Assembly: GCF_900465345.1 (NCBI RefSeq) | Contig: NZ_UEGO01000033.1 | Location: 62,001-126,000, forward strand | Direction of reading: 5' to 3' | Length of the DNA: 64,000 bases | Source of the DNA: Asaia bogorensis | GTDB taxonomy: Bacteria; Pseudomonadota; Alphaproteobacteria; Acetobacterales; Acetobacteraceae | Shown here: in pieces, positions 35,359 to 64,000 of the stretch | Position numbering within the stretch: position 1 is the stretch's first letter | How the letters are laid out: every line of letters begins with the position of its first letter | Position numbers and translations under genes: made by a program | The notes under the pieces: model-generated | Told to the model about the DNA's origin: nothing | What the model saw: only the letters and a program-made list of their open reading frames with translations | The model's database searches: none

Positions 35359-37551
35359 TCATGCGACCTTCATCTGCGGCTCGGGCAGGTCTATCCTGTA
35401 AGGGCCAGCACTAAGGATCTCCAATCTGAGGATCGTCTCGTCCTGACCCTCTGGACATACCAGATCGATGGCAGCACAGCCATTTGTCCATCGACAACGG
35501 GCATTCTCCAGATTATGCCAGCCGGGCTGACCTGACGATGTCAGATGTGCGTCAAGCCTTTGGTTATGATCTTGCCGGGCCTGTGTGATTTCGCCAATCA
35601 GTACACCCAGCACACGACGGTCATCGATATAAGGCCCAATGGCATCAAATGGACGCCCCGCACGCGAATGGAGCCATACTCTTCGTGTTCCAGGCGGCAC
35701 CCTATACGCCCTATGCGACCATGACTGTTCAGCCAGAGGCAGAATACGGCCAGCCTGATCCTTCAGAACAAGAACCGGGTCGTAAGTCATTTCGTGCCTG
35801 GCTGCTTGGGGTAGTATACCCATCCCGGCCGCGCGTTCAGACAGGGCCACATGAAGCGGCTGTACGAAACCGGCGGATGTTTCAAGTGGGGCCGCTGCAT
35901 CACATGCCCAGCTTCTGAGCGTTCTCGATGCATGGGGTTCTTCCGGAAGATCCAGTTGGCGCAAAACCGTGCCATATCCCGCACCGGAATCAAAATAGCT
36001 CTCAGTCGCCACGCCCTGAGCAAAGATGACAGAATGACGCTCCATTTCGAGATGGAAATACGCGTAGGTCCGGAAAGAGCGATCGTAGAGAATGGTCTGG
36101 TTGTTGACGAGCATGCGTACCGGCACGAATTTACCATCGAACAAAAAGCAATGTTCGGCAGTGACTAGCAAATCGCTATGGGGTTGTCCCGGCGCAAAGG
36201 CGTCTCGCAAGATGCGCACAGGCAAGCCCGACATATCGTCAGGCAGGTCGTGACGAACCTGGCATTCCTTCCTGATCACCCGCTTGATGATGCGCGTGAT
36301 CTTGATGCCGTTTTCCATACAGATCAGACGATCACCCGCGTTGAGTGTCTCGATTTTCCGCTCTCCACTGTCGGTAAGCAGCATGACCCCCGACAGGAAG
36401 CAGGCATCTATATTATCGATAAAGAGACTCGAGGCGAGACTCTCTACTTCCAAATTGGCATTGGCCTGCATGGCCAGCCCGACCATCCAGCCGCCAGACC
36501 TGACCATGAGCTTGATGGAACTTCCTATATCAGGATCGATAATCCTGCCCCCGGCCAGTACCTCGACCTTGTGCCTGACCGAACCATGGGCGCCATCAGT
36601 GGCACTGCTATAGAATTCCTCGACTTTCGAGATTGCTCCGGCGTCAATCTGCACATCGCTGTCGATATAGATATTTCCGATGGTCATGCCGCCGGCAGAT
36701 ACGGAAACACCGTCAGGCGAACTCGCCTGATCAATGTAGGAACTTATCAACCTGCCACCGCTCTGAACCACGACACTGATATTTCTAGCGACGATACCCG
36801 AAACGACAGCGCCGCTCATTATGGTCAGGCTCCCTCCGGGATCCCCGTAAAATGCCGCGCAGTTCATCGTAAAGAGTGATCCGGACTGGTACCACGTTGC
36901 GCCATCTGCCCCCGGCACTGCCACCCAGTTTCCTGTCACACCATTAGCCAGATCCTGTGTCAGATCCCTGATTTCGGGTGGCGTGGGTGTGCCGATTTGT
37001 GACAGCGCCGAGATATGAACACCAGCGGCAATGCTGACCGCATGCAACTGAGCCCCTGCGTCGATACCGAGATACGATCCGGACAAGCAATCAATTCCCG
37101 TCACCGTCGCGCCGCTGGTCATATAGATCGTACCGCCCGGCTGAAGCGTGATGTTGCTGGCCACCGAACCACTGGACAATACGATAGCGCCCCTGTCCAC
37201 GGCCGTGATACCGCGGCAAACAGCCCCATCCGCATAAGTGATCTGGGAGATACCGCTGATCAAACTGTCATTCATCTCCCCACCAGAAACGGTGAGATAG
37301 GTCAGGTCGAAGGTAAGGGCACTGGTATAGGCGCCTGTCAGATCGCCACGAAACCCGGCCAGAACACTGTCAACAATGCGCGCGCCACTATCAGCATGGA
37401 TAATTATAGCGTGTTCATTATCGTAAGGCCCCCCGGTATAGACAGGGGTTTGCAGGGCAGAAATCGAGGCTCCGCTATGGACGTACATCTCTGCGGGCCT
37501 GTCGACCTCGACTGCACCTGATGTGTTGTCTTTATCGAAATGATAAATCAC
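35359..37551 (-). CDS. Large beta-repeat protein with a Hint domain
   Basis: 730 residues. Residues 1 to about 375 are short Gly/Ser/Thr/Val-rich repeats (VSGGEMNDSLISGI, LSSGSVASNITLQPGGTI, MSGAVVSGI) resembling the beta-helix repeats of AIDA-like autotransporters. A Hint_2-type domain follows from Cys384 (DACFLSGVMLLTDSGERKI) with the block-B histidine in VTAEHCFLFDG. The last 150 residues form a separate beta-rich module. Such proteins are numerous in acetic acid bacteria and their function is unknown; a secreted surface role is inferred. The start is a GTG behind a strong AGGAGG (five-base spacing). No signal peptide is visible. Confidence 0.85.
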   Translation of the reverse strand: MIYHFDKDNTSGAVEVDRPAEMYVHSGASISALQTPVYTGGPYDNEHAIIIHADSGARIVDSVLAGFRGDLTGAYTSALTFDLTYLTVSGGEMNDSLISGISQITYADGAVCRGITAVDRGAIVLSSGSVASNITLQPGGTIYMTSGATVTGIDCLSGSYLGIDAGAQLHAVSIAAGVHISALSQIGTPTPPEIRDLTQDLANGVTGNWVAVPGADGATWYQSGSLFTMNCAAFYGDPGGSLTIMSGAVVSGIVARNISVVVQSGGRLISSYIDQASSPDGVSVSAGGMTIGNIYIDSDVQIDAGAISKVEEFYSSATDGAHGSVRHKVEVLAGGRIIDPDIGSSIKLMVRSGGWMVGLAMQANANLEVESLASSLFIDNIDACFLSGVMLLTDSGERKIETLNAGDRLICMENGIKITRIIKRVIRKECQVRHDLPDDMSGLPVRILRDAFAPGQPHSDLLVTAEHCFLFDGKFVPVRMLVNNQTILYDRSFRTYAYFHLEMERHSVIFAQGVATESYFDSGAGYGTVLRQLDLPEEPHASRTLRSWACDAAAPLETSAGFVQPLHVALSERAAGMGILPQAARHEMTYDPVLVLKDQAGRILPLAEQSWSHRAYRVPPGTRRVWLHSRAGRPFDAIGPYIDDRRVLGVLIGEITQARQDHNQRLDAHLTSSGQPGWHNLENARCRWTNGCAAIDLVCPEGQDETILRLEILSAGPYRIDLPEPQMKVA

Positions 37552-50930: not shown

Positions 50931-52151
50931 TCAGGCTGCGTTGGCCAGACGATGCTCTCGCCACAATTCGGCCAGCGCTGCTACAAGAGAGTCGATATCG
51001 TCCTTGCTGTGCAGGGGCCCTGGTGTGATGCGCAGACGCTCCGTGCCCCGGGGAACCGTTGGGTAGTTGATCGGCTGGATATAATGGCCAAAGCGCTGGA
51101 GCAACGCATCAGACAACGCGCGGCATTGCGTCGCATCGCCCACCATCACCGGCACGATATGCGATGGGTTGTCCAGATGGGGGATACCTGCACGGTCGAG
51201 GCTTTCACGCAGCCACGCCACTGCCTGACGATGCGCCGCCCGTTCACTCTGGCTGTTGCGCAGATGGCGGATGCTCGCCAACGCCCCTGCGGCGATCATC
51301 GGTGGGAGCGCAGTCGAGAAAATGAATCCCGAGGCGAAGGAACGCACAAAATCGCACAGGGCTGCGCTGCCGGTAATATAGCCGCCCACCACGCCAAAAC
51401 CCTTGCCCAGAGTTCCCTCAATGACTGACAGGCGATGCGCAAGACCGCGCTCCTCGGCGACACCTCCTCCCTGATGTCCATACAGGCCCACCGCATGGAC
51501 CTCATCCAGATAGGTCAGGGCGTTATAACGATCGGCAAGGTCACAGATCGCTTCGATCGGCGCGATATCGCCATCCATCGAGTAGACCGATTCAAAGGCG
51601 ACAATCTTGGGCGTGTCGAGCGGGATTGCCTTGAGCTTCTGCTCGAGATCCTCGACGTCGTTATGGCGGAAGATCATCTTCTCGGCGCGCGAATGGCGTA
51701 TGCCTTCGATCATCGATGCATGATTGGCAGCGTCAGAGAGTACGACGCAGCCCTTGAGCCTGGCAGCAATCGTACCAAGCGTCGCCCAGTTGGAGAGATA
51801 ACCTGAATTGAACAGAAGGGCTGCTTCCTTGCCATGCAACGCGGCAAGTTCCTTTTCCAGCGCAACATGCTCATGGTTTGTACCCGAGATATTACGCGTG
51901 CCACCGGCCCCGGCGCCACTACGAGACAGGCTTTCATGCATCGCCTTGAGCACATCGGGGTGCTGGCCCATGCCAAGGTAGTCATTCGAGCACCAGACAG
52001 TGATATCGCGCTTCAGACCGTGGTGATAGGCGTGAGGGAATTGACCGGCATGGCGCTCAAGCTCGGCAAAATGCCGGTAGCTGCCATCAGCCTTGAGGCC
52101 GTCCAGAGCCTTCTGGAAATACGTGTCATAGCCTGTATCGACGTGCGCCAT
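50931..52151 (-). CDS. hemA: 5-aminolevulinate synthase
   Basis: 406 residues. PLP enzyme of the alpha-oxoamine synthase family that condenses glycine and succinyl-CoA, the first haem step in alphaproteobacteria. Features are WCSNDYLGMGQHPDVLKAM, GAGGTRNISGTNHEH, FNSGYLSNWATLG, YLDEVHAVGLYG and the PLP lysine in EGTLGKGFG (Lys250). GAGGGA lies eight bases before the ATG at 52151. The frame stays open upstream to 52328, but that part overlaps the neighbouring gene and has no family match. The haem and siroheme genes of this window are about 8 kb apart. Confidence 0.96.
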   Translation of the reverse strand: MAHVDTGYDTYFQKALDGLKADGSYRHFAELERHAGQFPHAYHHGLKRDITVWCSNDYLGMGQHPDVLKAMHESLSRSGAGAGGTRNISGTNHEHVALEKELAALHGKEAALLFNSGYLSNWATLGTIAARLKGCVVLSDAANHASMIEGIRHSRAEKMIFRHNDVEDLEQKLKAIPLDTPKIVAFESVYSMDGDIAPIEAICDLADRYNALTYLDEVHAVGLYGHQGGGVAEERGLAHRLSVIEGTLGKGFGVVGGYITGSAALCDFVRSFASGFIFSTALPPMIAAGALASIRHLRNSQSERAAHRQAVAWLRESLDRAGIPHLDNPSHIVPVMVGDATQCRALSDALLQRFGHYIQPINYPTVPRGTERLRITPGPLHSKDDIDSLVAALAELWREHRLANAA

Positions 52152-52296
52152 CTCGTTCTTCCCTCTTTTATGTCCATAGCGCAAAACAGCTAACCGCGTT
52201 GCAGGGCAAGTTAAACTCACGTTATGGGCGCTCGCCCGCGCAACGGGAGAGACTGGCGGAACCTGTCGCAAGAGAGAGGCTACGTCCAGCCCTGCT

Positions 52297-53385
52297 TTAT
52301 GCGCAAGGCGGCGTTGCTTCCATCGCAATGTCCTCTAATTCAGGGCAAAAGCCGCTCATTTCATCGAACGCAGCCCCAAGGGCGAAGCCATACTGGGCCG
52401 AAGAGGCGATTCTGGCGAAATGCGTCCTGATCCCAATGGCTTGCAGGGCCCCGCATGTGGCAGAGAAGAATTTCGCTGCAACCGGGTCGAGCCGCTCCTG
52501 TTTCTGCGGGGCCATACGCCAAAGTCCTGATGGTGCAGAGACAAGGCCGGCTTCCAGACTTACCCCGGCAATCAACCCTGAGCCCGCACGCTCTCGCAAC
52601 AGGCTGAGACTGGATACTCCCTGCCCAAAACGCCCAACCCACAATTCCACCCCCCACTCGACCAGAGCGGAGAGACATCTCGCCTCTTCGCGCCCGACGA
52701 GAGAAAACCTGCGTTCATCCAGAACAAGGCGCAGGGCCTGTGGAGAGAAGCGTGTCTCCGCAAACACTTCTTTGAGGGCCAGCACGAAGCTCTTGTCAGG
52801 CAAGGTATGATCAGACAGAGCCAGACTGACCCTGTAATGCCCACCGACCGGGGACATACGATGACAGATTTCACGCAATGTCGCGATGTCAGACCTTGTC
52901 ACATCGTCCCTGTCACGCGCCTTCTGCCTGGTTCGCGGCTGAACCAATGGTACGACATCCCATCCGATAAGCCTGACATGATCACCTGTGCGACCATAAC
53001 GGCCAATCCAGCGCAGGACAGGCGCGCCCATCCCGGTTCCGGAACAGTGAGCCGTGTGAGAAACATGAGAGCATGAGCGCGATCGCCTCCGAACGGCGCC
53101 TTCCATTGGCGTGCCAATCCGGCCTGCACTCGCACCAGCGCAGTTCACCGGGTCAGAACATGTTGTCTGAAGGTTCGGTCGGGTGAGATCGGGAAGGATG
53201 ATACTGGACAACGTGACGCGAGAGACCCGTACGCCCATCCGGTCTGCCTGTGCCTCCCCCCTTTCAGGCGACAGGATCGGTGCAGGGCTTTTCTCCTCAA
53301 TAGATAATCCCGGACCCGCGTTGTCTGTCCGGCCTCGCCCCCGGAGCACAACATCTGAGAGCACCGCGCCGTTGCGCCCGGCCAT
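52297..53385 (-). CDS. Protein with a degenerate EAL-like (c-di-GMP phosphodiesterase-type) domain
   Basis: 362 residues. The C-terminal half follows the EAL pattern: APVLRW where EALLRW is expected, YRVSLALSDHTLPD (for the conserved Asn-Leu-Ser strand), LRLVLDERRFSLVG (for LExTE), WGVELWVGRFGQGVSSLSLL (for the DDFGTGxSSL loop) and AIGIRTHFARIASSAQ (for the AEGVET-Q region). The metal-binding Glu of EAL and both Asp of DDFG are missing, so it should not cleave c-di-GMP. It might bind nucleotide or a partner. AAGGA sits seven bases before the ATG. It lies 145 bases upstream of hemA on the same strand. The assignment rests on eye alignment. Confidence 0.55.
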   Translation of the reverse strand: MAGRNGAVLSDVVLRGRGRTDNAGPGLSIEEKSPAPILSPERGEAQADRMGVRVSRVTLSSIILPDLTRPNLQTTCSDPVNCAGASAGRIGTPMEGAVRRRSRSCSHVSHTAHCSGTGMGAPVLRWIGRYGRTGDHVRLIGWDVVPLVQPRTRQKARDRDDVTRSDIATLREICHRMSPVGGHYRVSLALSDHTLPDKSFVLALKEVFAETRFSPQALRLVLDERRFSLVGREEARCLSALVEWGVELWVGRFGQGVSSLSLLRERAGSGLIAGVSLEAGLVSAPSGLWRMAPQKQERLDPVAAKFFSATCGALQAIGIRTHFARIASSAQYGFALGAAFDEMSGFCPELEDIAMEATPPCA

Positions 53386-53768: not shown

Positions 53769-55031
53769 ATGTCGGCCTCCGCCCGCCAATCCTACCTGTC
53801 CCAGATCCTCACCTATCCTCCATTGGTCGCGCTCAAACCCTTCTGGCGCGTCACCTTCGCCGCGTTCCTCGGCTGGTTTCTCGACGCCTTCGACCAGACA
53901 GCGCTGCTGCTCACCCTGCCCGATATCTCTCACGATTTCGGGGTCACCATCAGCGCCATGGGCACGGTACTTCTGGCGCAAAGCATCGGGCGTGCCGTTG
54001 GCAATACCGGGTGGGGATGGCTGGCAGACCGCTATGGCCGCCGACTGGCGTTTCTGCTGGGTGTGTTGTGGTTTGGCGTCTTTTCAGCAGCCACAGGCTT
54101 TTCTCACAGCCTGATCAGCCTGATTGTCATCCAGTTCCTTTTCGGCATCGGTTTTGGCGGTGAGTGGACGGCTTCCGCAGCCCTTCTGATGGAAAGCGTA
54201 CCCGGCAAAAGCCGCGCCATGGCCTCGGCCATCATGATGTCGGGTTATGAGCTGGGGTTTCTGGCTGCGACCGCAGCCCAGGCCGTTATCCTCCCGCACT
54301 ACTCATGGCGCCTGCTGTTCTTCATAGGGCTGGCCCCCGCCGTGCTCGCGCTTTTCATACGCTGGGGCGTTCAGGAAAGCCCGGTATGGACACTCAAGCA
54401 GGAACGCCAGAAGGGGCTCAACGGCGCGGCACCCCAGCCAAAAGCCAAATTCATCCTGACGCTGGCGGCCGTGCAGGCCATTGCGCTGATGTCGTTTCTG
54501 GAGTTCCAGAAGGCTGCCATCTACAGCCTTTATCCAACGATCCTGCGCAATGTTCATCACCTGACGCCGGCCCTCGTGTTCTGGCCAATCGGCTGTTTCT
54601 GTATCGGTTCGCTGGTGGGCAAGCTATCCTGCGGGGCGCTGGCCAGCCGCTTTGGCGATCTGCGCGTGATCATCGGCACACTGCTTGTGGTGATCCTCAC
54701 GATCTATCCGTTCCTGAGTGCGGAGACCTACCCCGTTCTGCTGGTATCGGCCGTGATCATGGGGCTTGCTGCCTCGGGCGTCTTTGCCCTCGTGCCGCAT
54801 TATCTCGCCAAGCGCTTCCCTTCGGACACGCGCAGCTTCGGCATGGGGCTGAGCTATGCCATTGGCTCGCTTGGTCAGGGGCTTGCGGGCAAGCTTGTCC
54901 CGGTTTTCGGGCGTAATCTTGGTCTCCCGCTCTCGGCACAGCTTTTTGTCATTGGATCCAGCGTGATCGTGGGCGCCATTGCGTGGGCAGAGCCGGACGA
55001 GCTTCCGGGCGAGACAATGGAAAACGAATAG
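53769..55031 (+). CDS. MFS transporter, sialate/carboxylate (SHS)-like
   Basis: 420 residues with about 12 membrane segments. The loop 2-3 signature is GWLADRYGRRLAFL; FLGWFLDAFDQTALLLTLPDI and FGIGFGGEWTASAALLMESVP resemble the sialic-acid/lactate/aromatic-acid proton symporters. The substrate, probably an organic acid, cannot be read. AAGGA lies seven bases before the ATG. It ends at a strong terminator shared with the convergent PKS gene. Confidence 0.88.
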   Translation: MSASARQSYLSQILTYPPLVALKPFWRVTFAAFLGWFLDAFDQTALLLTLPDISHDFGVTISAMGTVLLAQSIGRAVGNTGWGWLADRYGRRLAFLLGVLWFGVFSAATGFSHSLISLIVIQFLFGIGFGGEWTASAALLMESVPGKSRAMASAIMMSGYELGFLAATAAQAVILPHYSWRLLFFIGLAPAVLALFIRWGVQESPVWTLKQERQKGLNGAAPQPKAKFILTLAAVQAIALMSFLEFQKAAIYSLYPTILRNVHHLTPALVFWPIGCFCIGSLVGKLSCGALASRFGDLRVIIGTLLVVILTIYPFLSAETYPVLLVSAVIMGLAASGVFALVPHYLAKRFPSDTRSFGMGLSYAIGSLGQGLAGKLVPVFGRNLGLPLSAQLFVIGSSVIVGAIAWAEPDELPGETMENE

Positions 55032-55126: not shown

Positions 55127-58100
55127 TCAGGCAGATGCCATGTTAAGACTGATCTGGCGCAGCACGTTACGCGCAATTTCGCGTATCGGCTCGTTTCGCG
55201 ACAGGACAAGCAGGGAGATCTCGACATTGAATTCTGTCTTGATCGCCGTCTGGATTTCCACACCCGCCAGTGAATCGACACCCAGCTCGTTTGGCCGTGC
55301 ACCCGGATCAATGCTGTCGGGCTCGAGCTTGAGCACGTTGCCCAGGATCGACTTCACGTTATCCAGCACGAACTCGTAACGCTCCTCGGGTGACAGAGCC
55401 TGGAGATGCGCCAGCTTCTGCGCCGAGGTATTCTTGATGCTCTTCTCGCGCCTGATAAGCGCGAATTTGGGATTGCGCTCGATTGCCCCGTGCTGAGTGA
55501 AGCAGGTCTCCCAGTCGATCGCCATAGCTGCCACCGTATCGCGGTCCCGGTTGATCAGACCAGGCAGGAGGGAAACTGCTTCATCGCCTTCAAGCAGCCG
55601 GAATCCGGCATTCTCGAAGAACTGTACGACGCTACCTTCCTGAGCCAGCATACCCACCTCGGCGATCGGACCCCATTGCACGGAAACCGCCGGGAAGCCT
55701 GCCTTGCGGCGGGCGCTGGCGAGCGCGTCGAGATAGGCGTTGGCCGCCAGATAGCTGCTTTGCCCGATATTGCCTGTAACGGTCACGATCGAGGAGTAGA
55801 GCACGAAATAATCCAGCGGACAGTCGCGTGTCAGCATATCCAGATGATGCCCGCCCAGGACCTTTGGCTTGAGCACATTGCGCAGGCTTTCTTCAGAGTA
55901 TTTCGAAATCAGGCGGTCATCGAGGATGCCCGCTGCATGGAACACACCTTTGAGCGGAATATTCGTCTCCAGAATGGCCGATTTGATACGGGCTACATCC
56001 TCGAAGACGCTGACATCGCCATAATGCAACGTGACCCGGGCACCCGCCTTTTTCAGGGCCTTGATCTTGGCAAGCGTCTCCTTGTCACGGCGTATGCTGC
56101 GTCCCATGAGATGCAGATGACGTGCGCCACTGGCTGCCAGCCACGTCGCCGTGGCCAAGCCAAGGCCGCCCTGACCACCTGTCACCAGATAGGCTGCCGC
56201 TGGGTCGATCGGTCTTACAGGCTGACGCTGGGCGCGCACATTTGCCAGATCTTCATAGGATACGAGAATCTTGCCGATATGCTTGGCAGACGACATGAAT
56301 TTGAAGGCGTCGCGTACTTCACAGGCGGGATAGACCTTGTGCGGCAGAACCACCGTATCAAACTTGCGGGAAAGATAGGGAATACGGTCGAAAATCGAGA
56401 CAGCCTTGCGATGATCACGCGCCATCATCAGATCGAGATCGAAGGCGTGGAAGGACACGTTGCCATTGAAGCTGAACTGCGACAGATCGCGCTTTTCCCA
56501 GATGTCCTTCTTGCCGATTTCGACAAAGCGACCGGTATTGCACAGCAGCGCAAGACTGTGCGCCTGGATCTCTCCGGGTGAGCTGTTCAGGACAACATCA
56601 ACACCCTTCCCCCCGGTTGCCGCAAGAATACCATCATAAAACGCCAGGCTGCGTGAATCCCAGACGGCCTCACAGCCACGATCAAGGAGGATCTGGCGTT
56701 TTTCGTCATTACTGGCTGTTGCGAAAATACGCGCGCCGATGATCTTGGCAATTTCGATGGCAGCCAGTCCGACACCCCCTGCGGCGGAGTGCACGAGAAG
56801 GATCTCCCCCTTCTTCAGACGCGCCAGGTCGTACAGGCTGTAAAGTGCTGTTGCGATGGCAATTGGCAGTCCGGTCGCTTCATGGACCGTGACAGGCCGC
56901 CCCTGTGTCTCGAAGAGTTCGAGTGGCGTCGCGCGAAAGCCTTTGACCGGTATTGTCATATGGGAGGCAAAGCATCCGGGATGACATGTCAGGTATCTCT
57001 TCCCGACCTGGAAATTCTTGACCCCCTTGCCTACAGCCTCCACCTCGAAACAGCATTCCATACCCATCTCAGTGGTATGGTAGGTATCAAGCAGGAACTT
57101 GTCAGGCAGGACGGAAATGCCCTTGAGCATGTCCTTGAAGTTCAGCGATGTGGCCAGCACACGAACAGTGATCTCACCCCGCCCCGGTGGACGCACATCG
57201 AAAGCCTGATAGTACAGACCGTCAAGCGTACCGGAGCGGCTTTTCTGCAGTTTGATACCCGGCGAGCCAGGAAGCTGCGACAGGGGACGGTCCGGTTGCC
57301 CCTCGACCGGCATGAAACGCGGGGTGAAACGACGCCCCTCACGAAGGGCAATCTCGACTTCGTTATCTTCATGCAGAATCTCGGCCGCGAGTGCCGTGAG
57401 CGCATCCTGCCCATTCAGGGTATCAACGTCGACAATCTTTCCCTGGAAATCAGGACGCTCATCAATCAGCCCCTTGAAGAACCCGACCAGGGCAGCCCCT
57501 TCAGGATGTACCTTTGCCTGATTGGCAAGAATATCCTCGGGATCAAAGAAAGTCGCGTTTTCTGAGACATAGATCAGCCTGGATCTCTTCTCCTGTCCCT
57601 CGATGAGAACGCGGGAGCCAAACTTCACCAGGTCGTTGATCTGCCCGACCAGCTTTTCAAAATCCACCTCTGGTGTCGGGCCCGCCATATAGATGATCGC
57701 ATCCAGCGCAAGCCCAGGCTCCAGCCCGATTGTCTCAGCGGTGATCTCCCCGCTACGCGGTGTGGTAAGGACCGTAACGCCGTTTTCCTCGAACAGGGCG
57801 CAAAGTTTTTTCTGCGTGGCGCTTCTGTGTCCGGCAACAAGCACGGTCTTGGGTTCGGCGAAAAGGATCGAGGCTTCTGACTCTATCCATCTTGTATAGT
57901 ATTCCTGCGTCTCGACGCGGGTAGTGACCTCCTTGTGGATGCGTGGCACTTCCGCAAGGCGCATGCCCTTTACCTCTGCCACCGGAATGCCCGTCATGGA
58001 ATAGAGACGTAGGGAAGCCTCGATCTGACTCTGGCTGATCGCCGTGATCTCGACCCGCGCCAGAACCTCGGTGCTGCCCATGCCAAAGCAGCTCAGCCGC

Positions 58101-61100
58101 TCAAAGCCGACGGGTACGTACATATGATCCGAGAAGCTCTCAGGCACGAGACCGATCAATGCGTGCATCGCACCATCGAGTAGGGCCGGATGCAGATAAT
58201 AGGCCTCGGCCGAACCCAGCTCTGCCTCGGTCAGTCCGATACGAGCATACGCCACATGATCCTGCACAGCGAGGCGCTGCAGGGTCTGGAAACGCGGGCC
58301 GTAATGGAAGCCATGGCCGCGGATCTTCTCGTATAGTCCTGCTCCGTCCACACCCTGTTCAAGCGCCTGCTCGACCATCGCACGATCGATCACCGGCATA
58401 GGCCATGGCGCAGCGGAGAGAATATCGACCTTGCCATGGTCGATCCACATTTCCGAATATTCTTCCTTGGCGCTGTGGAAATGAAGCGCACGCCGACTTT
58501 CGTCATAATCGAGATAGAGGATTGGATTATCGCCGGGCTGCACGACCAGCGGCGAGTGAACCTCGAAATTTTCGAGCACGACGCCCGTCTGACCCTCGAC
58601 ATCATGTCCTACCGCCAAAGCCGCCTCGATAAAGCCAGCCGCAGGTAGGAGCACGACGTTGTCGATGCAGTGATCCTTGAGCCAGGGCACGCCCATCTCA
58701 GTGAGATCCACCACCCAGGATTTCCCGGGGGACATGGCGCCGAAGCCGATCAGCGGATGACCTGTCCCGCCATGGCGGAAGCGCCTTTCGCGTTCATTCT
58801 CAATGCGGAATATTTCACGCGACCAGCGATAGGTCGGGAGATCGATCAGAGTACCACCTGTGATGGCCTCCCAGTCGAGCCGTGCTGTATGCAGGATGAT
58901 GTTGGCAACCGCATTTTCGAGACATTTTGCCTCGCTTTCCTGACGGTTGAGAGTGCTGATGACGCTCAGCTTGGCCTGCTGCTTGTCCGCTACCGATTTC
59001 AGTGCGCGTCCGATCACCGGATGCGGTCCGATCTCCACAAACTGCGTAAAGCCATCCTCCAGACAGGCTTCGATAGCGGCAGCAAAAAGTACTGGCTGTC
59101 GGGCATTGCTGAACCAGTAACCGCAATCTGCCCGATGGTCCTCCTCGGCACGTTTGCCATAGACCGTGGAATAAAAAGGCGTGGTGGCGGCATTGGGTGT
59201 GAGGGATGCAAGAGCCTTCTTAAGATCACCTTCAATGCGATCCATCACCTCACTATGGAACGGAACCTCGACATTCAGGATACGGTTGAACAGGCCTTTC
59301 TGTGTCAGATGCGCAGCCAGATGACGTATCGCCTCTTCCGGCCCTGCCAGGGTGCAGGTAGTCGGCGCGTTCACGGCGGCCACGCAGAGTTCCGGTGCCT
59401 CAGCTGCAATCAGTTCGTTTGCGGCTTCTGCCGACAGACCCACAGCAAGCATACGGCCAGTACCGTCGAGTGTGCCCTGAAGATGGCTGCGATGATAGAT
59501 GACCGTGACAGCGTCTTCGAGGCTCAGACCGCCTGAAACGTAAGCAGCTGCAACTTCACCCATGCTGTGACCGACCACAGCTTCAGGCAGGATCCCCTGC
59601 AGGGCGAGATATTCGGTGACAAGCACCTGTATCAGGAAAATGGCAGGCTGGAGAATGGCCGTGCTGTCAATGCGGCTATCGGCCTCTTCTCGCAATATCT
59701 CTTCGCAGATCGAATAGCCCGACAAGGTCTTGAACAGCGCGTCGCATTCATTCGCCTTGTCCAGCACGGCCTGCGGTGCCTCGCGCAGCAGATAGCGACC
59801 CATTCCCCACCATTGCGGGCCTACACCGGAATAGACAAACACCATGCCACGGCCGGACTCTGCCTCGACCGTTGCCTGGAACATACCTTCCTCGCGCTGG
59901 TCCCTCAGATAGGCATCAAGCCTGTCTGCCAGTTCCTGCTCGTCATGCGCCATGACAAGCAGGCGATGGCGGAACAATGTGCGTGATGTGGCAAGGCTAT
60001 AGGCGAGATCGGCAAGCGCAGGCCGTGCCCCTCCTTCGAGACGCTCGCGATAGGCAGCCGCCATGAGCGGCAGCGATGTCTTGGAAAATGCGGTGAGCAG
60101 GAACGGAATCTTGCCGTTGATGCGTCGCCCCATTTTGTACCTGCTGCTTACAGGCGCTCTGTCATCAGGGCGACGCAGGACAGCGATAGCGTTCGTGCCA
60201 CCATATCCGAAAGAGTTGACGCCAGCAAAACGAGCGACTTTTTCACCCCCAAGCGAACGGGGTGCGCCTCGCGGAATATCGAGATTCCATTCATCCAGAT
60301 GGATCGAGGGATTGATCGTCTGCAGACTGGGCTGAGGCGGCACCTCTTGGTGACGGAGGCAGAGCGCCGCCTTGAGTGTGCCAAGCGCACCGGCGGCAGC
60401 CTCGGTATGGCCGAGATTGGCCTTGATCGCCCCTATGACAAGTTTCTCGTCCTTGAAGCGTGCAATGGATTGCGACAGTGCGTAGGTCTCGATCGGATCA
60501 CCCGCAGGTGTGCCGGTACCATGCGTCTCGACATAAGCCACATCGCGCGGGTCGACATCGGCGCGCTCAAGAACCTCGGTCATGAGGCGCGACTGTGCGC
60601 CAGCATCAGGGGATGTGAGAAATTGCGTACGCCCGTCCGAATTGACGCCGGTTGCGCTTACAATGGCATGGATCGTATCACCGTCCCGCTCTGCGTCTTC
60701 CAGACGCTTGAGCACGAACACCACGCTGCCTTCACCGCGACCGTAGCCATCTGCAGCCGCATCAAAGCTCTTGGAACGTCCATCACGCGCGATGAAATGC
60801 CCTTTGGACATGAAGATCGAGGTTTGCGGGCAATCCATAAGGCTGACACCGCCGGTGACCGCCACATCAATATCACCCTCATTCAGGCTACGGCAGGCCT
60901 GATGGAGAGCCACGAGCGATGATGAGCATGCGGTGTCAATCGACATGCATGGTCCCTGGAAATCGAACACATGCGCCAAACGGGCGGAAAGCATGGTGGA
61001 AGGCGTTGCCGTCGCCGCAAAATGGTCACGCACTGTCGGCAAATTATAGGGGCTGGACGTATGGGCATGAGCATCAATGGCGAAAATGCCGATGAACACG

Positions 61101-61471
61101 CCCGTCTTGTGACCTGACAATTGCGAGGGGAGGACACGCGCAGCCTCCATTGCTTCCCATGTTACTTCGAGGAGCAGTTTTTGCTGCGGATCGAGAATCT
61201 GCGCCTCTCGCGGTGAAATACCAAAAAACAGCGGCTCGAATTCGTGTATGTTACGCTTAAGAAAACTACCCCGCCGCATATAGGTTTTCGACGGGGACTC
61301 GATTTCCTCCGCGTAGAAACGTTTTACGCTCCAACGCTCTTCCGGAATATCGGTAACTGCCTCTCCTTGAGCGCAAAGAAATGACCAGAGCTCGTCAACA
61401 TTGGTTATATTAGGCGCCAACCGGCATCCAATTCCTATGATGGCGATATCAGATTTTTTATTGCGCGACAT
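55127..61471 (-). CDS. Monomodular fully reducing type I polyketide synthase (KS-AT-DH-ER-KR-ACP)
   Basis: 2114 residues. KS (about 5-435): DTACSSS with Cys182, HGTGT (His317) and NLGHTEAA (His355). AT (about 540-850): GHSMGE with Ser636 and a PFHSEVMD loop. DH (about 904-1175): His934 and Asp1099, with HCIDNVVLLP having Asn where Gly is usual. A cofactor-less structural KR-like segment spans about 1200-1390. ER (about 1415-1750): LVHSAAGGVGLAA. KR (about 1775-1975): TGGQGGLGLA and YSSIVTVTGNIGQSSYLAAN. ACP: LGVDSLAGVE, phosphopantetheine Ser about 2067. The order matches iterative highly reducing PKS such as mycobacterial Mas or fungal HR-PKS without a methyltransferase. There is no thioesterase or reductase release domain. 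An adenylation-like gene lies 101 bases upstream. Confidence 0.93.
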   Translation of the reverse strand: MSRNKKSDIAIIGIGCRLAPNITNVDELWSFLCAQGEAVTDIPEERWSVKRFYAEEIESPSKTYMRRGSFLKRNIHEFEPLFFGISPREAQILDPQQKLLLEVTWEAMEAARVLPSQLSGHKTGVFIGIFAIDAHAHTSSPYNLPTVRDHFAATATPSTMLSARLAHVFDFQGPCMSIDTACSSSLVALHQACRSLNEGDIDVAVTGGVSLMDCPQTSIFMSKGHFIARDGRSKSFDAAADGYGRGEGSVVFVLKRLEDAERDGDTIHAIVSATGVNSDGRTQFLTSPDAGAQSRLMTEVLERADVDPRDVAYVETHGTGTPAGDPIETYALSQSIARFKDEKLVIGAIKANLGHTEAAAGALGTLKAALCLRHQEVPPQPSLQTINPSIHLDEWNLDIPRGAPRSLGGEKVARFAGVNSFGYGGTNAIAVLRRPDDRAPVSSRYKMGRRINGKIPFLLTAFSKTSLPLMAAAYRERLEGGARPALADLAYSLATSRTLFRHRLLVMAHDEQELADRLDAYLRDQREEGMFQATVEAESGRGMVFVYSGVGPQWWGMGRYLLREAPQAVLDKANECDALFKTLSGYSICEEILREEADSRIDSTAILQPAIFLIQVLVTEYLALQGILPEAVVGHSMGEVAAAYVSGGLSLEDAVTVIYHRSHLQGTLDGTGRMLAVGLSAEAANELIAAEAPELCVAAVNAPTTCTLAGPEEAIRHLAAHLTQKGLFNRILNVEVPFHSEVMDRIEGDLKKALASLTPNAATTPFYSTVYGKRAEEDHRADCGYWFSNARQPVLFAAAIEACLEDGFTQFVEIGPHPVIGRALKSVADKQQAKLSVISTLNRQESEAKCLENAVANIILHTARLDWEAITGGTLIDLPTYRWSREIFRIENERERRFRHGGTGHPLIGFGAMSPGKSWVVDLTEMGVPWLKDHCIDNVVLLPAAGFIEAALAVGHDVEGQTGVVLENFEVHSPLVVQPGDNPILYLDYDESRRALHFHSAKEEYSEMWIDHGKVDILSAAPWPMPVIDRAMVEQALEQGVDGAGLYEKIRGHGFHYGPRFQTLQRLAVQDHVAYARIGLTEAELGSAEAYYLHPALLDGAMHALIGLVPESFSDHMYVPVGFERLSCFGMGSTEVLARVEITAISQSQIEASLRLYSMTGIPVAEVKGMRLAEVPRIHKEVTTRVETQEYYTRWIESEASILFAEPKTVLVAGHRSATQKKLCALFEENGVTVLTTPRSGEITAETIGLEPGLALDAIIYMAGPTPEVDFEKLVGQINDLVKFGSRVLIEGQEKRSRLIYVSENATFFDPEDILANQAKVHPEGAALVGFFKGLIDERPDFQGKIVDVDTLNGQDALTALAAEILHEDNEVEIALREGRRFTPRFMPVEGQPDRPLSQLPGSPGIKLQKSRSGTLDGLYYQAFDVRPPGRGEITVRVLATSLNFKDMLKGISVLPDKFLLDTYHTTEMGMECCFEVEAVGKGVKNFQVGKRYLTCHPGCFASHMTIPVKGFRATPLELFETQGRPVTVHEATGLPIAIATALYSLYDLARLKKGEILLVHSAAGGVGLAAIEIAKIIGARIFATASNDEKRQILLDRGCEAVWDSRSLAFYDGILAATGGKGVDVVLNSSPGEIQAHSLALLCNTGRFVEIGKKDIWEKRDLSQFSFNGNVSFHAFDLDLMMARDHRKAVSIFDRIPYLSRKFDTVVLPHKVYPACEVRDAFKFMSSAKHIGKILVSYEDLANVRAQRQPVRPIDPAAAYLVTGGQGGLGLATATWLAASGARHLHLMGRSIRRDKETLAKIKALKKAGARVTLHYGDVSVFEDVARIKSAILETNIPLKGVFHAAGILDDRLISKYSEESLRNVLKPKVLGGHHLDMLTRDCPLDYFVLYSSIVTVTGNIGQSSYLAANAYLDALASARRKAGFPAVSVQWGPIAEVGMLAQEGSVVQFFENAGFRLLEGDEAVSLLPGLINRDRDTVAAMAIDWETCFTQHGAIERNPKFALIRREKSIKNTSAQKLAHLQALSPEERYEFVLDNVKSILGNVLKLEPDSIDPGARPNELGVDSLAGVEIQTAIKTEFNVEISLLVLSRNEPIREIARNVLRQISLNMASA

Positions 61472-61572: not shown

Positions 61573-63030
61573 TCAGACACCTTCGGAACGATGAAAGGCA
61601 TCCGAGAGCCGCTCGCGATCAACGCGCCCATCGAGCGACCATGGAATATGATCGACAGACATGACACGAACAGGCGGCAAGGTGGGATAAAAAGCCCTGA
61701 GCGCCTGTGCGAGACGCTCGGCATCGAATTCTGATGACGAGGCAATCGCAAGATTGATCCTCGTGCGTCCTGCCTCGTCAAGAGAGAGAAAGCTGCCCAG
61801 CGCCCGTATATCGAGAATGTTCCGTGAAATGTCATCGACCACCCCAAGGTCAAATTTTTCACCACCGATTGATACCAGATCATCTACGCGTCCGGTGATA
61901 CAAACCATGCCATCTTCACCGACACGCCCACGATCTCCCGGATAAAACCATCCGGCAAAAAACCGGCGTGACTGACCTGCATTCTCGCTTACATACGCAT
62001 CCAGAAGTCCTGAGCTTCTGATGCGAACAATACCCTCCTCACCCGGCGGAACAGGCGCATTATCAGCATCGACAATCTGGAGTGTGACCCATGGCAGCAC
62101 CGCCCCGACCATATCCTCACTGGTCAGATCCTGCGCATGGCCGATGGCGAGCGCACCGCACTCGTCAGTACCATAAGCACTGATGACATGAGGTGTGAGC
62201 TGCTCAAGCGCCCTGTCACGCAGCACACGATTGAGGCGCCCTCCCGTTACGATAAGTCTGAGTGTGTCGAGCGCCTTCATTCCCGGGGGGAGTACTTCGA
62301 GGATATGAGCCAGATGACTGGGCGTCACAACAGCAACGGTGGGAATTTTGCGGGCAATGAGTATGCCAATATCAGTGTGGCTTACAAAATTGAGCGGCGC
62401 CCCGCTGCATAACCCGCTACACCCGACAATGAACCCGGTCAGGGAGATGACACCGATTGTGGAGAGGATGTGCGGCTGCATGGACGCCACAGCGCTCAGC
62501 GTCTGATCCTGCATGACCATATGCATGATCGCCATTTCTGCCTGACGGAAAGACATGGAGAGTACCTGTCTCTCTGCATCGGTTCCTGCGGCAATGGCAT
62601 AACGGCAGATGGCGTCATAGTTGATAGCATGATTGCACGGCTCTGCTTCAGTCTGACGGACACGACTGAGCCAAGACTCGTTGATTTCGAGGACCTGGAC
62701 GTCCTGAAGAGACAATCCTCCCATCGAGATCATGATGTCCGGTTCGAGTAGCTGTACATCGCGCAGAAACGAAGGATCCGAACTTTCAGGAAAAGACGCG
62801 CTGGCAAGACCGAGTGATGCAAGTGCGAGAATGAAAACCCAATGCCAGTAGAGATTCCCGCAATGGATACCGACAAGCCTTGGATCAGCGTCTCTCAACT
62901 TGTCGAGCGCCCGGGTAACGGAACGCACATCCCGCTCCAGCTGACCAAAGGTCCAGTCTTGCGCAAGGCTGTCGAAGGCCAGGGATTGCGGGTTCTGCCG
63001 GGCATAACGCAGGGCCATAACGTGAAACAT
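61573..63030 (-). CDS. Degenerate AMP-binding (acyl-adenylate) protein
   Basis: 485 residues with the ANL fold: TFGQLERDVRSV near the start, ISAYGTDECGALAIGH (A5), GWFYPGDRGRVGEDG (A7) and ITGRVDDLVSIGGEKFDL (A8). The A3 P-loop region reads AIAAGTDAERQVLS instead of a Ser/Thr-Gly-Thr-Thr-Gly-x-Pro-Lys motif. The catalytic A10 lysine site reads DGRVDRERL, Arg for Lys. Both changes predict weak or no adenylation. ATG 63030 has AGGGA nine bases upstream; a TTG at 63039 abuts it. It probably forms an operon with the PKS. It may be a scaffold, or an enzyme using altered chemistry (inference). Confidence 0.8.
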   Translation of the reverse strand: MFHVMALRYARQNPQSLAFDSLAQDWTFGQLERDVRSVTRALDKLRDADPRLVGIHCGNLYWHWVFILALASLGLASASFPESSDPSFLRDVQLLEPDIMISMGGLSLQDVQVLEINESWLSRVRQTEAEPCNHAINYDAICRYAIAAGTDAERQVLSMSFRQAEMAIMHMVMQDQTLSAVASMQPHILSTIGVISLTGFIVGCSGLCSGAPLNFVSHTDIGILIARKIPTVAVVTPSHLAHILEVLPPGMKALDTLRLIVTGGRLNRVLRDRALEQLTPHVISAYGTDECGALAIGHAQDLTSEDMVGAVLPWVTLQIVDADNAPVPPGEEGIVRIRSSGLLDAYVSENAGQSRRFFAGWFYPGDRGRVGEDGMVCITGRVDDLVSIGGEKFDLGVVDDISRNILDIRALGSFLSLDEAGRTRINLAIASSSEFDAERLAQALRAFYPTLPPVRVMSVDHIPWSLDGRVDRERLSDAFHRSEGV

Positions 63031-63055
63031 GAACGACAATCCCTAAACGCAAACG

Positions 63056-63118: not shown

Positions 63119-64000
63119 TCAGCCCACCTGAGCTTCGCGATGCCCGGCAGAGGCGTGAGCAAGATATGGCCCACCTGCCAAAACTTCAATTGCAACAATA
63201 CATACGGCGTCAGACTGACGGTCACTGAGATCGATCATCGCAGAACCCGTGGTCCAGCGTTGACGACCATCCTCGATATTTGCCCAGCCATCGAGATGTT
63301 CGTCAGTCAGGTGATCCGCAAGGTGACGGGTTCTGTCCGATTCCCAGATCTGGATATCCCCGACAAGGACGCCGAGAAGGCGACGATCATCATGGAATGC
63401 TCCGATGACATCCACAGGCCTGGAAACACGCGATACCAGCCGGACCCGCTTGGCATCCGGGGGCAACATGAAGACACTCGAACGGTTCACGACGCGCATT
63501 TTGCGCATGATCCGCCCTTTTTCATCAACAAGATGAAGATCGGGATCCTCCGTCACTTCAGGTTCCTGCGTGACGGAACCCAGATTCAACGACGCCGCAC
63601 GACGGACGAGAGACGCATGTAGCGGCTCGACAAAACCACGGTCCACACGAAGCGGTGCCGCACCATCACCTTCCCAGGTTGACTCCGGAGCATTCAGAAT
63701 ATGAACAACGGAACCAGGCTGCGCAAAGCGCTTGCGATCACCTGTATCCAGATAACTCTCGCTCAGCGCGTTATCAGCCCAGATGATGGAATGCGCATCC
63801 GTCTCGACATGATAATAGTCGAAATGCGTGATTGAATGATCATAGTAGATGCTCCGATCATTCACGAGCATACGCGCGGGAACGAAAGCACCGTCAAGAT
63901 ACATGGCGTGTTCGGGCGTGACCAGCAGGTCCTTGCTCGGCACGTTTTCTCCAAGCGCATTACGCAGGATACGTACCGGATACCCGGCTTCATCATCCTC
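63119..64000 (-). CDS. Hint-domain protein, C-terminal part (runs off the window)
   Basis: The reverse frame is open from the stop at 63119 to the window edge, about 293 residues. It begins inside the Hint domain ([20 protein letters not shown], block-[12 protein letters not shown]) and continues through [17 protein letters not shown]. The C-terminal module matches the protein at 35359-37551 in order and wording: [11 protein letters not shown] against RRVLGVLIGEI, and the pattern W-x-N-[IL]-E followed by RW-T in both. The N-terminal part is outside the window. It lies just upstream of the AMP-binding and PKS genes on the same strand. Confidence 0.85.

Follow-up and report, generated by a model that had tools for sequence, protein, structure and literature searches.

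What does a single-module reducing polyketide synthase (PKS) build in an acetic acid bacterium, and for what destination? The question is raised by a PKS gene near the end of a 64,000-nucleotide stretch of Asaia bogorensis DNA (NZ_UEGO01000033.1, positions 62,001 to 126,000; here called the window), which is part of contig C6 in a genome of 3.38 Mb. An earlier note on this DNA had called the PKS an orphan. That label is ruled out by a conserved neighbourhood, lying partly outside the window, that contains a fatty acyl-AMP ligase (FAAL), a homologue of the ANL superfamily that lacks the adenylation lysine, O-heptosyltransferases, and adhesin-like proteins with a Hint domain. We propose that the PKS may be the chain-builder of a conserved acyl cassette in a surface-adhesin locus, a reading to which we give a probability of roughly 0.4. 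The cluster itself is already published: PMC8776678, in the parts available to us, describes it as that of the beta-group PKSs, which are flanked by acyl ligases and an O-heptosyltransferase, as in the window locus, and in Asaia also by Hint proteins. What is new here is the lysine-less ANL homologue, the apparent transfer of the cassette, and the case for a surface role.

The synthase and its conserved neighbours

The PKS gene is a single uninterrupted frame with an ATG start in the open reading frame list of the window (Table 1). The Pfam matches of its product (KS, residues 7 to 382; AT, 544 to 848; DH, 905 to 1178; ER, about 1430 to 1737; KR, 1759 to 1937; ACP, 2039 to 2101) agree with the order KS-AT-DH-psiKR-ER-KR-ACP given in the earlier note. 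Pfam finds nothing between DH and ER, and the psi-KR there is assigned by collinearity with mycocerosic acid synthase (MAS) alone, an assignment supported by the end-to-end match of residues 6 to 2104 with residues 5 to 2097 of MAS (a 2124-aa chain; 899 bits, with 630 for the next kind of PKS). The catalytic residues listed in that note are all in place, namely Cys182 of the KS, Ser636 of the AT, the serine pair 1893-1894, Tyr1907 and Asn1911 of the KR, and Ser2067 of the ACP; those of the KS, AT, ER, KR and ACP are present in 28 of 30 aligned PKSs, the exceptions being the AT motifs of genomes G061 and G147 (G006 and G007, whose PKS is in pieces, were left out of the alignment). The DH motif HxxxGxxxxP reads H934-CIDN, with Asn at the usual Gly, in all eight aligned Asaia-group copies including that of G016. 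The AT motif is VPFH, which we take to be malonyl-type and not methylmalonyl-specific, and 28 of the 30 PKSs have the form [VIL][PA][FY]H. The PKS is single-module, fully reducing and Mas-like in architecture, and very probably iterative. The PKSs of G061 and G147 (loci L078 and L079; at 10508 and 10429) are about 2012 aa long, lack both the GHSxGE and the VPxH motif, and are perhaps an AT-less variant fed in trans.

"Mas-like" describes the architecture and not a proven origin, because the KS alone shows no special closeness to MAS, at 315 bits compared with 326 for Pks13 and 339 for CurL; its best match is the putative PKS 7zma (530 bits with two stretches), and the Pks2 equivalog model gives the PKS 1099 bits, under its cut-off of 2400. 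The KS phylogeny suggested earlier as a check was built from 48 sequences at hand, with no named Mas, HglE or fungal highly reducing PKS rows among them; in it all 32 beta-group KSs group together with a local support of 0.859, and a Nocardia PKS is nearest.

A minus-strand trio fills the last 9 kb of the window, consisting of the 3' part of a Hint gene, the ANL gene and the PKS gene, with 79 bp between the Hint end and the ANL gene and 101 bp between the ANL end and the PKS start. The ANL gene has a likelier start at the ATG at 63030 than at the listed TTG, and the Hint gene runs past the window end (full extent, C6:125119-127434). Past that edge lies the gene for a second adhesin-like repeat protein of 748 aa (Hint_2, 128 bits, and 129 bits in the 771-aa protein), and farther out, divergently oriented, are genes for a family-1 glycosyltransferase (GT1), two O-heptosyltransferases matching TIGR04414 at 551 and 552 bits (cut-off, 200), and a 586-aa FAAL, which matches FAALs of the PDB and NCBIfam, including FadD32, FadD28 and FadD23, and possesses the A10 lysine. 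The absence of release enzymes reported earlier holds, as a Pfam comparison of 11 proteins from the locus and its flanks showed neither a thioesterase nor a release reductase (some small open reading frames lay outside the scan). Nor is a phosphopantetheinyl transferase nearby, as had also been said: the genome has a single ACPS-family (PF01648) match, and that lies on a different contig (C21:243553-243840). This enzyme would serve fatty acid synthesis and the PKS alike, unless a transferase of another type exists.

Intact PKS homologues are found in six of eight Asaia congeners (81 to 92% identity) and in another genus (73%), so the long frame is not due to chance. PMC8776678, as far as available, regards the Asaia PKS as likely split, whereas we find one intact frame in seven of nine Asaia genomes. 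Frameshifts in related strains, which the earlier note would have counted against its claim, are thus seen in two of the eight congeners, G006 and G007, each matching in three pieces; these are the least complete genomes of the eight, and in G007 some neighbouring genes are likewise cut or missing. The gene block is the same in G016, which belongs to another genus, and in the eight congeners, save for a contig end in G008 and the broken genes of G006 and G007.

Across the family, an ANL profile matched 40 of 299 genomes at E≤1e-40. Thirty stretches around the non-Asaia matches were fetched (weak matches G141 and G227 were left out), and 21 have a PKS beside the ANL gene; with the nine Asaia genomes, G016 and a second locus in G001, these make up 32 PKS loci. 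All 32 have the ANL gene on the PKS strand and upstream of the PKS, at 30 of them no more than 102 bp away; the other two, G061 and G147, have a Hint gene of about 3 kb in between. A FAAL gene is present at all 31 assessable loci (the contig of G008 is too short); at 22 it follows the PKS immediately (-4 to +60 bp), and at nine it is divergent and about 11 kb off. An O-heptosyltransferase gene is present at 30 of 31 assessable loci. A Hint gene lies directly upstream of the ANL gene at 22 of 31 assessable loci (G303 is at a contig edge), a count that includes G001 and G008 from inspection of the loci, because the called ANL start overlaps the Hint gene there and the counting script missed them. 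ANL, PKS, FAAL and heptosyltransferase occur together over nine genera, with PKS identities, where listed, of 38 to 44% outside the Asaia group. Judged by the published distribution and the named loci, G016 might be Swaminathania, g125 Saccharibacter, g65 Commensalibacter, g57 Bombella and g79 Acetobacter, all of them guesses. At E≤1e-200 the PKS is found in 27 of the 299 genomes, spread over eight genera (G061 and G147 have a PKS yet miss this cut), and all 27 also hold TIGR04414 and the ANL homologue; TIGR04414 is present in 86 of 299 family genomes and in none of 14 controls. These co-occurrence counts are inflated by the relatedness of the genomes.

A search of named genomes with the ANL alignment gave two true members among the best 80 loci listed, the rest resembling generic ligases by score and identity. 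Their gene orders are Hint-ANL-PKS-FAAL-heptosyltransferase in Acetobacter sacchari (L109) and ANL-PKS-FAAL-heptosyltransferase in Bombella apis MRM1 (L110), with gaps of at most 57 bp and 4-bp overlaps; upstream in L110 are genes for a DsbD-like protein and a GT1, with no Hint gene adjacent. Among 385 sampled genomes from outside the family, 11 have an ANL match at E≤1e-45; six stretches from five of them show no Hint gene, clear FAAL or full PKS beside the ANL gene, and the ANL proteins displayed from such stretches keep the catalytic motifs.

Catalytic losses in the ANL homologue and a second cassette

In the ANL superfamily, the A10 motif supplies the adenylation lysine, and the P-loop and the A8 thiolation motif are likewise of established meaning. 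None of the 32 PKS-linked ANL homologues has the A10 lysine, and R, Q, H, F, E, M or S stands there instead (the residue in G001 is uncertain, its C-terminus being aberrant); all 32 also lack the P-[K/R] pair of the P-loop, and the A5, A7 and A8 regions are largely kept. The homologues of A. sacchari and B. apis are likewise without the lysine. It is kept in 31 of 31 FAALs and in nine of nine ANL matches with no PKS in their stretch, these being G096, G170 and seven matches of lower strength, possibly ordinary ligases and in some cases located on very short contigs. The predicted model (pLDDT 80.5) has a full-length ANL fold and matches 4-chlorobenzoyl-CoA ligase in its thioester-forming state (3cw9) with a TM score of 0.78. 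Omega is 0.05 to 0.10 in five comparisons, with dS near saturation, which argues that this is not a decaying pseudogene. The PKS-linked ANL homologue thus probably functions, though not in adenylation; lacking the lysine wherever it lies beside this PKS, it poses a biochemical question, that of chain release with no thioesterase. In G096 and G170 (L076 and L077), where there is no PKS, a Hint gene adjoins an ANL gene with its catalytic motifs, which is possibly the ancestral state of the pair. The available parts of PMC8776678, PMC8262860 and PMC9147383 do not mention the ANL catalytic losses.

The second locus of G001 consists of Hint, ANL, PKS and FAAL genes on one strand with short gaps, the PKS being split into two overlapping frames. 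All four genes are nearest to those of the A. sacchari locus and G247, not to Asaia genes, and the KS groups with A. sacchari and G247 with a local support of 0.986. Hint-ANL-PKS-FAAL thus appears to have moved as one unit, and the movement of Hint together with the other three is our strongest indication of a joint function. In its available parts, the beta-group account of PMC8776678 mentions neither such a co-transfer nor loss of ligase catalytic residues.

A possible destination for the chain

The remaining components point toward the cell surface. The four O-heptosyltransferases tested match TIGR04414 at 520 to 572 bits, and enzymes of this type modify the strand-loop-strand repeat described by TIGR04415. 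That repeat is above its cut-off of 30 in two of eight Hint proteins tested, one beside the A. sacchari cassette (55.5 bits) and one adjacent to the second G001 cassette (38.8 bits). The likeness to the TibC/Aah autotransporter O-heptosyltransferases and their strand-loop-strand adhesins resides in these matches, whereas the adhesin-like proteins here carry Hint_2, and Pfam shows no autotransporter beta-domain in them. The AIDA match of the 748-aa Hint protein is under its cut-off. All 12 aligned proteins share an invariant Cys and a TxxH in the Hint_2 domain; the domain C-terminal to it has no Pfam family match, and a model of the two together (pLDDT 49) is too poor for comparison.

Gene content, conservation, motif loss and the common nearest relative were seen directly, and from them we infer every chemical step. 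The FAAL would adenylate a fatty acid and load it onto the PKS, which would extend it iteratively with malonyl units and full reduction, leaving a long saturated chain on the single ACP; these two steps are probable. The FAAL, the fully reducing iterative PKS and the malonyl-type AT motif point to a long saturated, fatty-acid-derived chain, and thus bear out the iterative, fatty-acid-like product foreseen in the earlier note, its surface location being probable because autotransporter-type O-heptosyltransferases co-occur with the PKS and adjoin it, and because most loci have adhesin-like Hint proteins alongside. Since no thioesterase was found and a non-adenylating ANL homologue is present, the chain may be released by transfer, and this homologue would be the best candidate for the handover, given that its nucleotide-site and A8 motifs are largely kept. 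The chain would be accepted by some part of the O-heptosylated adhesin system, so that a surface glycoprotein or its glycan becomes acylated or lipid-anchored, a step that we put forward tentatively. If the proposal is correct, insect- and flower-associated acetic acid bacteria have a so far uncharacterised lipid-adhesin surface system.

Several observations weigh against it. No product is known and no acyl acceptor has been demonstrated. In the Asaia group itself, five of six Hint proteins score only 17 to 23 bits with TIGR04415 and one has no match. Nine loci (seven of genus g57 and two of g125) have no adjacent Hint gene, although all nine genomes carry Hint genes elsewhere, and the second cassette of G001 has no adjacent heptosyltransferase gene. 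Many genomes of the family have Hint and heptosyltransferase genes but not this PKS, and G096 and G170 illustrate that a Hint-ANL neighbourhood does not need one. A PKS-specific Hint clade, as proof of the pairing, was not found in the Hint-domain tree (60 rows of 63, three duplicates being dropped; 36 from PKS loci and 24 from elsewhere), and a single clade of the PKS-linked Hint proteins is marginally rejected (AU test, p = 0.042). On the same tree, which is quick and weakly resolved with long branches, the PKS-linked label changes seven times, compared with a mean of 18.9 when shuffled (none of 500 as low), and the spread of the linked proteins indicates that the Hint partner was exchanged or acquired several times.

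A serious alternative, though a somewhat doubtful one, is that the product is a long-chain membrane or surface lipid or glycolipid free of protein, with the heptosyltransferases and GT1 either glycosylating the lipid or merely sharing the island. A PKS of this architecture with a FAAL usually makes a complex lipid; MAS is the best full-length PDB match of the PKS, a GT1 gene is present at 18 of the 32 loci, and no acyl-protein transferase gene was recognised. MAS and Pks2, with their partners FadD28 and FadD23, share with this PKS the domain order, length, single C-terminal ACP, absence of a thioesterase and partner FAAL. They differ in their AT, which is of methylmalonyl type there and has a presumably malonyl-type motif here, so that the methylmalonyl-specific AT characteristic of MAS itself is not found in the window PKS; no Pap acyltransferase was seen here either. 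A free lipid is also less easily reconciled with heptosyltransferases scoring far above the cut-off of a family that modifies strand-loop-strand autotransporter proteins, and with adhesin-like Hint proteins beside most loci. Those same Hint proteins are of differing lineages and are missing at nine loci, as would be expected if a conserved PKS operon simply sat by chance in a surface-protein island. We regard such a meaningless neighbourhood as unlikely in view of the association of ANL, PKS, FAAL and heptosyltransferase over nine genera and the apparent movement of Hint-ANL-PKS-FAAL as one unit.

The cluster has also been considered as the source of a secreted, diffusible antifungal metabolite. 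According to the available parts of PMC8262860, spent medium of the honey-bee symbiont B. apis inhibits fungi, and all strains have a type I PKS cluster with two putative adenylation domains, which is given as the antifungal candidate. From its description we infer this cluster to be that of L110, whose ANL-PKS-FAAL-heptosyltransferase layout is orthologous although no Hint gene is adjacent; on that layout the two adenylation domains should be the ANL homologue and the FAAL. We nonetheless think a secreted antifungal quite improbable: the same parts of PMC8262860 do not link the activity with any gene, the catalytic lysine is missing from one of the two adenylation-type proteins, and no exporter is conserved with the cassette. 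PMC9147383, as far as available, places the cluster in A. bogorensis and in acetic acid bacteria not tied to bees, doubts a bee-specific role, and offers secreted acids as another cause. If the product is a surface chain, the search for the antifungal should look elsewhere.

Less probable still is a Hedgehog-like lipidation, in which the Hint Cys would form a thioester of the heptosylated passenger, the non-adenylating ANL homologue would deliver the PKS product, and a hydroxyl or amine of that product would resolve the thioester, so that the adhesin ended C-terminally lipid-anchored. The likeness to Hedgehog/Hog and bacterial intein-like Hint proteins is in Hint_2 with its Cys and TxxH alone. 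Were it so, the varied Hint lineages beside one PKS cassette would mean that a single lipid tail is used for many Hint proteins.

The available parts of PMC8776678 report the beta-group cluster, with a single-module PKS and no thioesterase, in Acetobacter, Gluconobacter, Asaia and Bombella, and there, as in those of PMC8262860, the product is unknown. The earlier note, which had not known such a product from this family, is therefore right for the product, whereas the cluster is already described; the same neighbours have been described in silico, and no pathway has been established. We found no gene-level experiments on this PKS among the matches listed from the open-licence PMC literature.

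Other genes of the window and distant relatives

The major facilitator superfamily (MFS) gene at the 3' end of the PKS (Table 1) is kept in the Asaia group (86 to 100%), and no MFS match was found beside the PKS at other loci. On the far side of it is the gene for 5-aminolevulinate synthase, a housekeeping gene in this class. A pairing of this gene with the acyl ligase, as in C5N-type pathways, was considered and set aside, the synthase being absent from every stretch examined in other genera. Nine Hint_2 matches are present in the genome in all. Outside the window, about 22 kb past the PKS start, C6:145779-149774 encodes a 1331-aa protein that by eye resembles a nonribosomal peptide synthetase, followed by glycosyltransferase-like and ABC-transporter-like genes.

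Table 1. Features of the window discussed in the text (positions are those of the window)
Feature	Position	Strand	Remarks
Further Hint_2 protein	35359-37551	minus	730 aa; PF13403, 105 bits; away from the PKS
5-Aminolevulinate synthase	50931-52328		Conserved flank in the Asaia group
MFS transporter	53769-55031	plus	Adjoins the PKS 3' end
Monomodular reducing PKS, Mas-like architecture	55127..61471	minus	2114 aa; KS-AT-DH-(psiKR)-ER-KR-ACP
ANL-fold protein	61573..63039	minus	488 aa as listed from TTG; A10 lysine absent, P-loop degenerate
Hint_2 adhesin-like repeat protein, C-terminal part	63119..64000	minus	771 aa in full; late Hint and C-terminal domain in the window

In a plasmid collection, 2968 records match the PKS, none with at least 60% identity and the best rows at about 36%. 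One distant PKS (34%) is on plasmid p2 of Caballeronia insecticola (L201 5001-12413), where the neighbouring genes are annotated as LTA synthase family, deacetylase, aminotransferase and polysaccharide export, which suggests another surface-lipid PKS.

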